Assembly (NCBI RefSeq): GCF_020073815.1
Contig: NZ_JAIQZJ010000012.1
Location: forward strand, 62,001 to 126,000
Length of the DNA: 64,000 bases
Reading direction: 5' to 3'
Source of the DNA: Nocardioides mangrovi
GTDB lineage: Bacteria; Actinomycetota; Actinomycetes; Propionibacteriales; Nocardioidaceae
In this document: positions 9,636-55,691 of the stretch, piece by piece
How the letters are laid out: each line of letters begins with the position of its first letter
Position numbering within the stretch: position 1 is the first letter of the stretch
Translations under genes and position numbers: made by a program
The notes under the pieces: generated by a model
What the model saw: the letters and a program-made list of their open reading frames with translations, nothing else
Databases searched by the model: none
What the model was told of the DNA's origin: nothing

Positions 9636-10102
9636 CCGCGCGCGACCTTCTCCTCGGCGACCAGCGCCTTGCGGAGCATGTCGGCGATCAGCTTCTCGAT
9701 CTTCCCGCCGACCAGCGGGATACCGACGGTGATGACGCACGCGACCGTCTCGGTCGTGGTGCCGCCGTCCTCGGTGAGCTCGATGCTGCCGACCATCTGG
9801 CCCGGCTTGCCGGGGATGGTGACGTGGAGCTCGGCGTGGTCGGCGGCGGTCCACTCCTCGCGCTGGACGATGTTGATCTGGTCGCCCACGAACTTCGTCG
9901 CGAAGCTCGGCAGGCCCTTGGCCGGCTGCACCTGGTCGAGCACGACCACGACCGTGTCGCCGTCCTGCTCGAAGGTCACGGCGTTCTTCGTCCCGCCCTG
10001 CGCCGCGATGACCTCCTCGCGGTAGGCCTGGTCGTCCAGCATCGCGCCGACGTCGGCCAGCGCGGCGTCGTACGTCATCGTGTGGCAGAAGTCCGTGCTC
10101 AT
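9620..10102 (-). CDS. DUF2505 family protein (SRPBCC/START-like fold), copy 2
   Basis: 160 aa. N-terminus STDFCHTMTYDAALADVGAML and C-terminus GIPLVGGKIEKLIADMLRKALVAEEKVARGYL are typical of actinobacterial DUF2505, thought to have the SRPBCC lipid/ligand-binding fold. No catalytic residues are known. The ATG at 10102 has GGAGGG upstream and overlaps the stop of the upstream paralogue (ATGA), so the two are translationally coupled. Ligand unknown. Confidence 0.88.
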   Translation of the reverse strand: MSTDFCHTMTYDAALADVGAMLDDQAYREEVIAAQGGTKNAVTFEQDGDTVVVVLDQVQPAKGLPSFATKFVGDQINIVQREEWTAADHAELHVTIPGKPGQMVGSIELTEDGGTTTETVACVITVGIPLVGGKIEKLIADMLRKALVAEEKVARGYLSA

Positions 10103-10581
10103 CGCTGTCCCTCCAGGTAGGTCACGCCGACGGTGTGCTCGGCCTCCATGCCGGCCGTGATCTTCTCGGCCAGCAGCTTCTCCAGCTTGCCGCCGATCAG
10201 CGGCACCTTGATCCTCAGGTCGAGCTCGACGACCTCGGTGGTCGTGCCGCCGCCGTCGACCAACGTGATCGTCCCGCGCACCTGCGAGGGCTTGCCGGGC
10301 GCGTCGATCTCGAGGGTGCCGCCGGTCGGGTCGGTCCACACCTCGCGCTGGATCGCCCGGGTCGAGTCGCCGGCGAAGGTGCGCGCGAAGGACGGGAGGT
10401 CGTCGGTGCGCTGCAGCTGGTCGATGGTGAGCGTGAAGCCCTCGCCGGTGCGCTCGACCTCGACCTCTGCGGAGATCACGTCCTGCGCGGCGCAGGCCGC
10501 CTCCCGGAAGGCCGGGTCGGCGAGCATCGCGAAGACGTCGGCCGGTGCGGCGTCGTAGGTCACCTCGTGTCGGAACCTCAT
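10099..10581 (-). CDS. DUF2505 family protein (SRPBCC/START-like fold), copy 1
   Basis: 160 aa from ATG 10581 (MRFRHEVTYDAAPADVFAML); in-frame ATGs at 10590 and 10593 would add 3-4 residues, and no start has a strong ribosome site. The C-terminus KVPLIGGKLEKLLAEKITAGMEAEHTVGVTYL parallels the downstream copy, so the pair arose by tandem duplication and may form a heterodimer. The shared DUF2505 core spans the whole protein. Function unknown. Confidence 0.88.
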   Translation of the reverse strand: MRFRHEVTYDAAPADVFAMLADPAFREAACAAQDVISAEVEVERTGEGFTLTIDQLQRTDDLPSFARTFAGDSTRAIQREVWTDPTGGTLEIDAPGKPSQVRGTITLVDGGGTTTEVVELDLRIKVPLIGGKLEKLLAEKITAGMEAEHTVGVTYLEGQR

Positions 10582-10627
10582 GGCGGTCATCATGCCGGGA
10601 TCGAGATCTGCCGGGGCGGCGCCCTCC

Positions 10628-10690
10628 CGTCGTACCTGACGAACGGGTCGTGAAATCGTCGGATCGGCGACCCCTACGTCAGGTACGACG
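10628..10690. repeat. Dispersed palindromic intergenic repeat, copy 1
   Basis: A 63-bp element with perfect 14-bp terminal inverted repeats: CGTCGTACCTGACG at 10628-10641 and its complement at 10677-10690. The inner part contains GGTCGTGAAATCG. A second copy in the opposite orientation is at 25208-25268; over 61 aligned positions without gaps the first 12 and the inner 13 bases are identical. It lies between the DUF2505 pair and kynA, ending 18 bp before the kynA -10 hexamer. It could be a small repeat element or a structured regulatory site. Confidence 0.8.
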
Positions 10691-10720: not shown

Positions 10721-11545
10721 ATGAGCGGCGATGACGGCCAGACCACCGAGAGCTTCGTGTCCTTCGGCGAGCAGGGGGCGCAGCTCACCTACGGCTCGTA
10801 CCTGCGGCTGCCGGACCTGCTGGACTCCCAGCACCTCGAGTCCGACCCGCCCGCGCACGACGAGCTGCTCTTCATCACCATCCACCAGGTCTACGAGCTG
10901 TGGTTCAAGCAGCTGCTGCACGAGGTGACCGCGGCCCGCGACGCGATGCTCGCCGGCGCCGAGGGCGGGCGGCTGTGGTGGGCGCAGCACCTCCTCGCGC
11001 GGGTGCACGTGATCGAGCGGGTGCTGGTGCAGCAGGTCGACGTGCTCGAGACGATGACCCCGCAGGACTTCCTGGAGTTCCGCCAGCGGCTCGCGCCGGC
11101 CAGCGGCTTCCAGTCGGTGCAGTTCCGCGAGCTCGAGTTCCTCTCCGGCGCGAAGGACCCGTCGTACGTACGCCGCTTCCGCGGCCTCACGGAGGCCGAG
11201 GAGGAGCGGCTGGCCGAGCGGCTCGAGGAGCCGACGCTGTGGGACGCCTTCCTCGCGGTGCTGCGGTCGGTCGGCCTGCCCGCGGGAAGCGACGAGGAGG
11301 TCTCGGCCTCGATGCGGACCGTCGCCCACGACCGCGACCAGCACGCCGCGGTGTGGGCGCTCGCCGAGGCGCTGCTCCAGCACGACGAGCTCGCCGCGAG
11401 CTGGCGCGCGCGGCACGTGGTGATGGTCGAGCGGATGATCGGCAGCAAGTCCGGCACCGGTGGGTCGAGCGGCTCGACGTACCTCCGCTCGCGGCTGCCG
11501 CTGCAGTACTACCCGCTGCTCTGGGACCTCCGCAGCGAGCTCTGA
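10721..11545 (+). CDS. kynA: Tryptophan 2,3-dioxygenase
   Basis: 274 aa, normal length. A heme enzyme that opens the tryptophan indole ring to N-formylkynurenine, the first step of the kynurenine route. Diagnostic stretches: LTYGSYLRLPDLLDSQH, DELLFITIHQVYELWFKQLL, the C-terminal RMIGSKSGTGGSSGSTYL loop that closes over the substrate, and His in ASWRARHVVMVERM as the likely heme ligand. No kynureninase or formamidase gene is nearby. ATG at 10721 is directly behind a TACCCT hexamer. Confidence 0.95.
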   Translation: MSGDDGQTTESFVSFGEQGAQLTYGSYLRLPDLLDSQHLESDPPAHDELLFITIHQVYELWFKQLLHEVTAARDAMLAGAEGGRLWWAQHLLARVHVIERVLVQQVDVLETMTPQDFLEFRQRLAPASGFQSVQFRELEFLSGAKDPSYVRRFRGLTEAEEERLAERLEEPTLWDAFLAVLRSVGLPAGSDEEVSASMRTVAHDRDQHAAVWALAEALLQHDELAASWRARHVVMVERMIGSKSGTGGSSGSTYLRSRLPLQYYPLLWDLRSEL

Positions 11546-21395: not shown

Positions 21396-21522
21396 GGTTC
21401 ACCAAGGGATCGAGGGGAACCAGCAGGTGCCGTCGGTTGACCGTGATCCCTTGGTGAACCGACGCTTCCCCCGCGGAGCTCACCGAGGGGAGTGCGGGTT
21501 CACCGTCATCCCTTGGGGAACC
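21396..21522. repeat. Cluster of three 26-bp palindromic intergenic repeats (GGTTCACC family)
   Basis: Copies at 21396-21421 (reverse), 21435-21460 (forward) and 21497-21522 (forward). Each has imperfect inverted ends of the type GGTTCACC...GGTGAACC around a conserved ATCCCTTGG. Copies 1 and 2 face each other: GGTTCACCAAGGGATC (21396-21411) is the exact complement of 21445-21460, so they can form a strong hairpin. Similar flanks (GGAGCTC) are shared near copies 1 and 3. The region follows the ABC operon; it may act as a terminator and looks like a genome-specific repeat. Confidence 0.8.
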
Positions 21523-25207: not shown

Positions 25208-25268
25208 GTCGCACCTGACGAAATGGCTGCGGATCGACCGATTTCACGACCATGTGGTCAGGTACGAC
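25208..25268. repeat. Dispersed palindromic intergenic repeat, copy 2 (reverse)
   Basis: 61 bp, the inverse of the element at 10629-10689. End arms are GTCGCACCTGAC (25208-25219) and GTCAGGTACGAC (25257-25268), pairing with one mismatch. The conserved inner CGATTTCACGACC is at 25239-25251. It ends 29 bp before the guaA -10 hexamer. Confidence 0.8.
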
Positions 25269-25309: not shown

Positions 25310-26887
25310 ATGACGGCGGGTGAGCACGATCTGGTCCTGGTGGTCGACTTCGGGGCGCAGTACGCCCAGCTGATCGCCCGCCGCGTCCGCGAGGCGCGGG
25401 TCTACTCCGAGATCGTGCCGCACACGATGCCCGTGGCCGAGATGCTGGCCCGCGGACCGAAGGCGATCATCCTCTCCGGCGGGCCGTCGTCGGTGTACGC
25501 CGAGGGTGCGCCGGGCATCGACCCGAGCGTCTTCACGGCCGGTACCCCGGTCTTCGGCATGTGCTACGGCTTCCAGCTCATGGCCCGCGGCCTCGGCGGC
25601 GAGGTCTCCGCGACCGGAGCGCGCGAGTACGGCCGCACCCGGGTGAGCGTGAGCGCGCCCGGCACGCTGCTGGCCGACATCCCCGCCGAGCACACCGTCT
25701 GGATGTCGCACGGCGACTCGGTCACCCAGGCACCCGCCGGCTTCGACGTGCTCGCCGCGACCGCGCAGACCCCGGTGGCGGCCTTCGAGGACGTCGACCG
25801 CGGCCTCGCCGGCGTCCAGTGGCACCCCGAGGTGCTGCACACCGAGCACGGGCAGAAGGTCCTCGAGCACTTCCTCGTCCAGATCGCCCACTGCCGGCAG
25901 ACCTGGACGATGGTCAACATCGTCGAGGAGCAGGTGGAGAAGATCCGCGAGCAGATCGGCGAGCGCGGCCAGGCGATCTGCGGCCTGTCCGGCGGCGTCG
26001 ACTCCGCCGTCGCGGCCGCGATCGTGCAGCGGGCCATCGGCGACCGGCTGACCTGCGTGTACGTCGACCACGGGCTGATGCGCAAGGGCGAGACCGAGCA
26101 GATCGAGCGCGACTTCGTCGCCTCCACCGGCGCCGACCTGCGGGTCGTGGACGCCGAGAAGCAGTTCCTCGACGCGCTCGCCGGGGTCTCGGACCCCGAG
26201 GAGAAGCGCAAGATCATCGGCCGCGAGTTCATCCGCACCTTCGAGGCCGCGGAGGCGGAGATCCTGGGCGACTCGATCGCCGAGGAGGGCGAGAAGGTCG
26301 CCTTCCTCGTCCAGGGCACTCTCTACCCCGACGTCGTCGAGTCCGGCGGGGGAGCCGGCACCTCCAACATCAAGTCCCACCACAACGTCGGCGGGCTCCC
26401 CGACGACCTCCAGTTCGAGCTGGTCGAGCCGCTGCGCACGCTCTTCAAGGACGAGGTCCGCCTGGTCGGCGAGCAGCTGGGCCTGCCGGCCGAGATCGTC
26501 TGGCGGCACCCCTTCCCCGGCCCCGGCCTCGGCATCCGGATCATCGGCGAGGTCACCCGCGAGCGGCTCGACATCCTCCGCGAGGCGGACGCCATCGCCC
26601 GCGAGGAGCTGACCCACGCCGGCCTCGACCGCGACATCTGGCAGTTCCCCGTCGTGCTCCTCGCCGACGTCCGCTCCGTCGGCGTCCAGGGCGACGGCCG
26701 CACCTACGGCCACCCGGTCGTCCTCCGTCCGGTCACCTCCGAGGACGCGATGACCGCCGACTGGGCCCGGCTCCCGTACGACGTGCTCGAGCGGATCTCC
26801 ACCCGGATCACCAACGAGGTGGCCGAGGTCAACCGGGTCGCGGTGGACATCACGTCGAAGCCCCCGGGCACCATCGAGTGGGAGTGA
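25310..26887 (+). CDS. guaA: GMP synthase (glutamine-hydrolysing)
   Basis: 525 aa, full length. Converts XMP to GMP using glutamine and ATP. The class I amidotransferase domain comes first ([19 protein letters not shown], nucleophile Cys in GMCYGFQLM, His-Pro-Glu in [12 protein letters not shown]). The ATP-pyrophosphatase domain follows ([16 protein letters not shown]-loop), then the dimerisation domain ending [16 protein letters not shown] at 25310 with a leaderless-type promoter. Followed by a bidirectional terminator shared with the convergent oxidoreductase gene. Confidence 0.98.
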
Positions 26888-55596: not shown

Positions 55597-55691
55597 GGCG
55601 GGTTTCCCCGGCTGCCCGGGGAAACCCGCCGACACACCGACGATGCCGCGGCGTGTCGGCAGTTTTCCCCGGCCGCCCGGGGAAACCCGCC
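55597..55691. repeat. Array of palindromic hairpins (GGTTTCCCCGG family)
   Basis: Hairpin A: GGCGGGTTTCCCCGG (55597-55611) pairs perfectly with 55616-55630, loop CTGC. Hairpin B: GGCAGTTTTCCCCGG (55658-55672) pairs with 55677-55691 with two mismatches, loop CCGC. Between them CCGACACACCG (55629-55639) pairs with CGGCGTGTCGG (55649-55659) with one mismatch. The array lies between the ABC stop and the LLM promoter, likely ends ABC transcription, and A and B are copies of one repeat. Confidence 0.8.

Follow-up and report, generated by a model that had tools for sequence, protein, structure and literature searches.

Two 61-bp palindromes in Nocardioides mangrovi look like solo members of a mobile repeat family with a gene-bearing form

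Two palindromes upstream of kynA and guaA

The window analyzed here, a whole stretch of 64,000 nucleotides from Nocardioides mangrovi (contig NZ_JAIQZJ010000012.1, positions 62,001 to 126,000), carries two imperfect palindromes of 61 bp each. The first (10629–10689, plus strand) lies between two divergent genes, one on the minus strand (10099–10593) and a kynA-like gene on the plus strand (10721–11545). The second (25208–25268, minus strand) is located 41 bp upstream of guaA (25310–26887, plus strand). As originally described, the two elements align without gaps; the first copy and the reverse complement of the second are identical at 47 of 61 positions. Measured from the called starts, the spacers between element and gene are 31 bp for kynA and 41 bp for guaA, in agreement with the 32 and 42 bp given earlier. 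The two halves of each element pair with one another at 23 of 30 and 19 of 30 positions, respectively. The outer arm of the first copy, GTCGTACCTGACG (10629–10641, plus strand), is mirrored at 10677–10689 and shows the highest conservation of any part when the copies in this genome are compared. The inner 13-bp block, GGTCGTGAAATCG (10646–10658, plus strand), is common to both window copies and shows no differences between them, confirming the earlier observation. A scan of the window against Rfam at gathering scores returned 0 matches.

Other palindromes are also present in the window. An intergenic palindrome of 65 bp with very different arms (GGTTCACCAAGGGATC) is found at 21396–21460, 30 bp past a stop codon; it scores 28, whereas five shuffled windows gave at most 25, and it may represent a solo copy from a different arm family. 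At about 55600–55680, several high palindrome scores (24, 23, and 21 of 30) overlap.

Copies across the N. mangrovi genome and beyond

The N. mangrovi genome is available as a draft assembly of 5.04 Mb in 38 contigs. Further copies, whose existence was implied by the original prediction, were sought with a covariance model derived from 13 N. mangrovi copies, and 16 intact elements were recovered at E < 1e-6, every one of them 61 bp in length. In the alignment of the 13 copies, the arms GTCGTACCTGACG vary little or not at all, a GG at positions 18–19 is invariant, and much of the remainder varies with the length kept. With at most one mismatch allowed, the arm GTCGTACCTGAC has 88 matches in the genome, compared with 23 for the same pattern read backward, and because of this excess the palindrome is considered to be repeated more often than expected by chance. 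All 23 exact copies of GTCGTACCTGAC reside inside intact or interrupted palindromes. As none of the 23 is solitary, an uptake-sequence reading was rejected. A weaker match of the model, at C4:29407, belongs to a different arm family.

Two additional copies are broken at their center by IS-like DNA with terminal inverted repeats of about 30 bp. Both are situated at contig ends, which presumably belong together as C1/C35 and C31/C13. The interrupting DNA presumably resembles the IS30 family; a Pfam search of it supported no family.

Short, non-coding elements of fixed length with terminal inverted repeats could also represent miniature inverted-repeat transposable elements (MITEs) of an ordinary insertion sequence, the arms serving as its terminal repeats. 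However, no target-site duplication was seen in the flanks of the copies, and, the exact arm being confined to palindromes in N. mangrovi, no insertion sequence with these ends was found. Moreover, the gene-bearing form described below ends in whole palindromes rather than in halves. We regard a MITE origin as extremely improbable.

Among the matches listed, the covariance model reached at least 19 of 58 genomes, comprising its own, 17 of 36 other Nocardioides, and one of another family. The matches in other genomes include families that follow the same plan and are of similar length, with different arms. In a genome from another family of the order (G056), near-perfect palindromes (CTTCCTGAGCGGACTGGACG...; loci L121–L123) come no closer than 240 bp to any called gene.

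Position relative to genes and pairing between halves

Seventy-five matches from several species were inspected using a simple codon-usage gene caller, and 69 of them proved to be intergenic with both neighbors called. In 51 of the 69, a stop codon is overlapped or lies no more than 30 bp away, and many copies are located between convergent genes; some of the copies counted by stop-codon position sit beside the gene of approximately 330 codons discussed in the next section. Within 35 bp of a stop codon were 11 of 17 copies in N. mangrovi, 19 of 21 in a second genome (G013), and 14 of 16 in a third (G033). With the distances mapped, promoter-proximal placement, which had been put forward for the two window copies, does not hold as a general trait, and these two copies are the exceptions.

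No covariation was detected among the N. mangrovi copies, the observed score being reached by 292 of 500 shuffles, and paired cells in these copies numbered 147 of 256, versus 147.5 after shuffling. Two arm types of G033 gave similar results, with 25 paired cells of 55 (24.4 shuffled) and 71 of 154 (68.6 shuffled). One arm type of G013 showed 106 paired cells of 176, versus 83.9 shuffled, with the excess chiefly at pairs 15, 16, and 18; this excess could reflect either selection or palindrome correction. Leaving this G013 arm type apart, an RNA-structure reading was rejected for N. mangrovi because its copies lack covariation, and the earlier suggestion of a conserved structured element is accordingly unsupported in that genome. 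The absence of both a general relation to promoters and covariation, named at the outset as a refuting outcome, tells against the promoter-element reading and does not touch the mobile one.

The proximity of 51 of the 69 intergenic copies to a stop codon (30 bp or less), the location of many copies between convergent genes, and the above-shuffled pairing of the G013 arm type might suggest that the palindromes are bidirectional terminators or 3′ hairpins that stabilize mRNA, maintained by selection and kept alike by gene conversion. This explanation appears improbable. Both length and arms are fixed, and no T-run adjoining the hairpin, the sign of an intrinsic terminator, was seen beside the listed copies when the flanks were judged by eye. 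Neither N. mangrovi nor the two G033 arm types display a pairing excess, the window copies lie upstream of genes, and one gene family is bracketed by matched palindromes. Co-option of individual copies as terminators would nevertheless be compatible with the mobile palindrome family favored here.

A gene bracketed by matched palindromes

Comparison of the neighbors of palindrome copies yielded one recurrent protein of approximately 300–350 amino acids, typically about 330. In G013, a palindrome lies on either side of its gene, and the whole unit immediately precedes guaA, in the slot that is occupied by a solo copy in the window; a second such locus is present on contig C19. At E values up to 1e-10, a profile of five members identified 138 matches, which are distributed over 53 of the 59 genomes of the genus. 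Ninety-one of these matches were examined for palindromes of any sequence, and 68 had matching arms on both sides, although a few of the calls in this set look doubtful (L144 and L153). Named genomes yielded 127 relatives, and of the best 80, 70 had matched palindromes on both sides; 76 of these 80 are titled Nocardioides or Pimelobacter, and the other four are metagenome-assembled genomes titled Acidimicrobiaceae, Actinomycetota, Nocardioidaceae, and Marmoricola. In the union of the two sets, which have 26 loci in common, matched palindromes flank the gene in 115 of 145 distinct loci, and the script found no matched pair in 30. Control genes subjected to the same matched-pair test passed in 0 of 111 and 0 of 100 cases. 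Calling a palindrome on a single side is a loose criterion, which 27 to 31 of 111 control flanks also pass; matched pairs alone were therefore counted. At the loose threshold of 12, 1218 of 4830 cross-locus arm pairs agree.

The gene family extends beyond the genus. Across the order, it was detected in 155 of 245 genomes (E up to 1e-15). Among 20 loci of other genera or families, drawn from the best matches, 13 passed the pair test with a looser minimum length, compared with 3 of 100 controls; we accept 11 of the 20 and regard L375 and L376 as spurious. At the phylum level, a cutoff of 1e-20 left 9 of 296 genomes with a match. There were 24 matches outside N. mangrovi; of the 17 that were examined, 6 had matched palindromes, versus 0 of 96 controls. 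A genus of the same class (g40) harbors several divergent family members per genome (L422–L442), some with internal stop codons and some flanked by matched palindromes such as CGCCGAGACTGCAG.

N. mangrovi itself encodes three members, at C4:28439, C30:219080, and C15:19603 (L141, L170, and L218, respectively). The C4 and C15 genes are each flanked by a matched pair whose arms differ from those of the window copies, while the C30 gene has an upstream palindrome only, its contig stopping 81 bp past the match. A gene with GTCGTACCTGAC arms was not found in the draft genome. Because the three family genes carry other palindromes, the two window elements seem to be orphans, unless their cognate gene is missing from the draft assembly.

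Linked variation of arms and protein

The relationship between the two palindromes of a locus was evaluated from the top-ranked palindrome of each flank, the arms being disregarded. Both were present in 71 of 80 loci, and their arms agreed at 15 or more of 20 positions in 63 of these 71, versus 305 of 4970 cross-locus pairs. Under this arm-blind selection, mean arm agreement was 16.9 within loci and 10.1 between loci; an earlier within-locus mean of 17.3 of 20 came from loci selected for matching arms. The two end cores were in direct order in 35 and in inverted order in 28 of 68 loci, with neither order clearly prevailing. Across 70 loci, likeness of the arms follows likeness of the protein (Mantel r 0.63, reached by 0 of 999 permutations), a correlation that is partly expected from joint descent.

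More telling than this correlation are the genome-specific solo copies of two arm types. The type GCACCCCATGC...GCATGGGGTGC has 14 copies, found among 59 genomes in G033 only, and one of the 14 lies beside the gene. The type CTCCTCACGT...ACGTGAGGAG has 6 copies, confined among the same 59 genomes to G079, with two of the 6 beside the gene. Length is constant within each type, backward controls returned 0 for both, and G033 and G079 each hold a gene flanked by those same arms. The palindrome sequence appears to be particular to each gene of the family.

Features of the predicted protein

Searches of curated families returned no match for four proteins in Pfam or for three in NCBIfam, and a sequence search of the PDB was also negative. 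DUF2726, MTES_1575, and DUF559 were each hit by 3 of 60 scanned members at E values of 0.005–0.03; unrelated families scored alike, and these assignments were rejected. An AlphaFold2 model derived from 60 family members has a mean pLDDT of 94. In comparisons with VIA-align, residues 187–289 superpose on the catalytic domain of I-Bth0305I (3r3p) with a Z score of 10.2 and an rmsd of 2.9 over 95 residues, and the C-terminal half matches Vsr (1cw0) with a Z score of 8.5. Residues 1–182 match AbiEi (6y8q) with a Z score of 9.7 over 163 residues, the rmsd of 5.2 denoting a loose superposition. Competing matches were obtained for residues 39–182 with the nucleotidyltransferase toxin MenT1 (Z 8.6) and for the C-terminal half with mitoribosomal chains (Z 8.4). 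Because VIA-align commonly assigns Z scores of 7–8 even to models that have no clear match, all of these scores are moderate. Foldseek gave nothing below an E value of 0.001; its best matches were a mitoribosomal chain (0.015) and then the restriction enzyme PvuRts1I (0.022).

As modeled, the protein resembles an AbiEi-like N-terminal half joined to a C-terminal half of the Vsr/EDxHD homing-endonuclease type. E190, D223, H240, and D249 are invariant in the 60 sequences; this conservation fits an E-D-H-D site without proving it. AbiEi is reported to bind 11-bp inverted repeats that are N27 apart and extendable to 23 bp with 4 mismatches (PMC3985639), and an EDxHD enzyme is described as a dimer whose target spans nearly 60 bp (PMC3943268). 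By analogy, a 61-bp palindrome would fit as the site of a protein dimer, being compatible with both the AbiEi repeats and the EDxHD target length. The alternative initially offered, that the elements are protein-binding sites, has become plausible with the existence of a cognate protein family, and binding of the arms is something we infer.

Presence and absence at orthologous slots

Among the genomes with a match, orthologous slots were inspected for guaA in 30 of 58, for kynA in 17 of 54, and for relA, which has an element copy downstream in N. mangrovi, in 27 of 58. At the guaA slot, solo copies occur in N. mangrovi and, with the arms of their own gene, in G015 and G079, the latter copy being recognized without having been flagged by the script. 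The gene-bearing form occupies this slot in G013 and G071. In the close relative G058, no palindrome was found at the guaA slot, and a different palindrome is present in that of G009. Either gain or loss of the gene could account for the differences at this slot. Of 17 species inspected at the kynA slot, N. mangrovi alone has the element there, and it was not found in the 16 others.

Between relA and its convergent neighbor, the gap measures 75 nt with the element in N. mangrovi, versus 15 nt without it in G058, a difference of about one element length. Taken alone, this contrast is weak because relA gaps vary widely among species, ranging from 12 to 1263 nt across the 27 inspected and holding various other contents. 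In three species (L465, L467, and L475), other genes that on reading look AbiEi- or DUF559-like lie between relA and its neighbor, and G060 has a 64-bp near-perfect palindrome with unrelated arms (TACTGACCGTTGAGACC...; L462) at the relA slot of the N. mangrovi copy. The slot downstream of relA looks like an insertion hot spot.

Gene loci of the family also have neighbors in common that link them to one another, on both sides in 27 of 70 and on at least one side in 36 of 70; in example loci, we take these neighbors to be pstB and a phosphate permease gene. Since 27 of the 70 loci keep their flanking genes on both sides, the shared placement suggests vertical inheritance rather than frequent jumping.

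The presence and absence of the elements also bear on a purely regulatory explanation, in which the protein would be an AbiEi-like repressor or would bind the chromosome, the solo palindromes would mark its regulon or serve as its binding sites, and nothing would be mobile. The AbiEi autorepressor is reported to bind inverted repeats (PMC3985639), the N-terminal half of the model is AbiEi-like, and one palindrome does lie upstream of the gene. However, a matched palindrome lies downstream of the gene as well, most inspected copies follow stop codons, the arms vary by species, and the window elements are missing at the orthologous sites inspected. We therefore consider this explanation unlikely.

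Of the initial interpretations, that of a mobile, non-coding repeat family has stood up best: the copies are of fixed length, their distribution is patchy, they are absent at orthologous sites inspected, and a gene-bearing form exists, movement itself being unobserved. The readings as a general promoter element or, in N. mangrovi, as a structured element were not sustained.

Proposed mechanism

The window elements are probably solo, non-autonomous copies of a mobile family of palindromes of about 61 bp that is served by the AbiEi-like/Vsr-like protein; our confidence is slightly reduced by the moderate level of the structure matches. The fuller form of the element consists of a palindrome, one gene, and a second palindrome. 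The N-terminal half, similar to the AbiEi antitoxin, would be responsible for DNA binding, and the C-terminal Vsr/EDxHD-type domain is nuclease-like in its predicted fold. A dimer of the protein may bind both arms of a palindrome and cut in or near its center, after which the unit could spread through repair from a palindrome-gene-palindrome copy or through an unknown copying step. Solo copies would then be either independently spreading palindromes or scars of recombination between two flanking palindromes. The sequences directly show the repeat family, the gene with its matched flanking palindromes, the joint variation of arms and protein, the confinement of solo copies to single genomes for two arm types, and differences in occupancy at orthologous slots; cutting, movement, and the direction of movement are, like arm binding, steps that we infer.

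Whether this arrangement constitutes a new class of bacterial mobile element appears to us evenly balanced. Such a class would consist of a homing-type nuclease in which an AbiEi-like half reads the arms and a Vsr/EDxHD half cuts; its gene would be bracketed by two whole copies of its own palindromic site of about 61 bp, and solo sites would be distributed over the chromosome by the nuclease. The enzyme and its palindrome would co-evolve largely in place, each lineage holding a matched pair, and the system would be an actinobacterial counterpart of REPIN–RAYT built on an unrelated enzyme.

Relationship to known systems and significance

As described in PMC3116915 and PMC8049555, REPIN–RAYT systems share several features with the present family. 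They comprise short extragenic inverted doublets that occur in many copies, can form hairpins, and have lineage-specific sequences, and their enzyme gene is tied to the same repeats and long-lived in place. In contrast, the gene described here is AbiEi-like and Vsr/EDxHD-like rather than a Y1 (HUH) transposase, the palindrome is near-continuous over about 61 bp, and the hosts are Actinomycetota. Among the Pfam hits of 60 family members at E up to 1, no Y1 family was present. On account of this different enzyme type, the elements were not filed under REPIN–RAYT.

That the palindromes are nonetheless classical REP/REPIN elements mobilized by a RAYT (Y1 tyrosine transposase) is very unlikely. Their extragenic inverted doublets, 3′ location, and repeat-flanked enzyme gene are reminiscent of such elements, as are the IS-like insertions in two copies, but the Pfam hits include no Y1 family, and the C-terminal half has a Vsr-like predicted fold. 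Furthermore, the window family lacks, by eye, the unpaired GTAG or CGTC tag; GTAG does occur in many other arm families, where it is paired within the arm. According to PMC3733652, GTAG- and CGTC-tagged repeats are likewise extragenic and mostly downstream, between unidirectional or convergent genes, and the CGTC families have no known enzyme; those repeats, however, are 20–40 bp long with the unpaired tag at one end. The main text of PMC3733652 contains no words beginning with Actino, Streptomyces, Nocardioides, or Mycobacter. Palindromic REP candidates have been reported by RepRanger in three Actinomycetota genomes (PMC12306157), but the available text of that report includes no enzyme and no fixed 61-bp family, and Nocardioides has 0 occurrences in it.

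The relationship to individual enzymes is similarly partial. With I-Bth0305I, an EDxHD enzyme, the predicted protein has in common the fold of the catalytic domain (Z 10.2), and the dimer target of nearly 60 bp described for this enzyme type (PMC3943268) approaches the palindrome in length. Here, however, two whole presumed targets flank the gene, many solo copies exist, and the other half of the protein is AbiEi-like. The resemblance to AbiEi and the abiE operator lies in the predicted fold of the N-terminal half, which superposes only loosely (Z 9.7, rmsd 5.2), and in inverted-repeat arms, which in abiE measure 11 bp and extend to 23 bp on each side (PMC3985639); the present system differs in the added nuclease-like domain, the matched palindromes at both ends, and the scattered solo copies. 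In the open-access literature, as covered by titles and abstract openings, no description of a palindrome-gene-palindrome system was found; one may exist elsewhere, as subscription journals are scarcely covered.

The window palindromes look like solo members of a mobile repeat family in soil actinobacteria, and a previously unexplained repeat is hereby tied to a protein family that has no curated name and is widespread in the genus and the order. Dozens of natural protein–palindrome pairs with differing arms offer a recognition code that is ready to be decoded, and the protein family is a possible set of nucleases with very long sites. The family also provides an independent case for the persistence of short-palindrome populations in bacterial chromosomes, hitherto tied to RAYT enzymes.

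REPs are known to receive IS insertions (PMC1525189). At the N. mangrovi contig ends, two distinct IS-like elements abut the centers of palindrome halves (L001, 1501–1736; L020, 1–236; L017, 1501–1907; L005, 1–407), and the palindromes may be a preferred target for IS-like elements.
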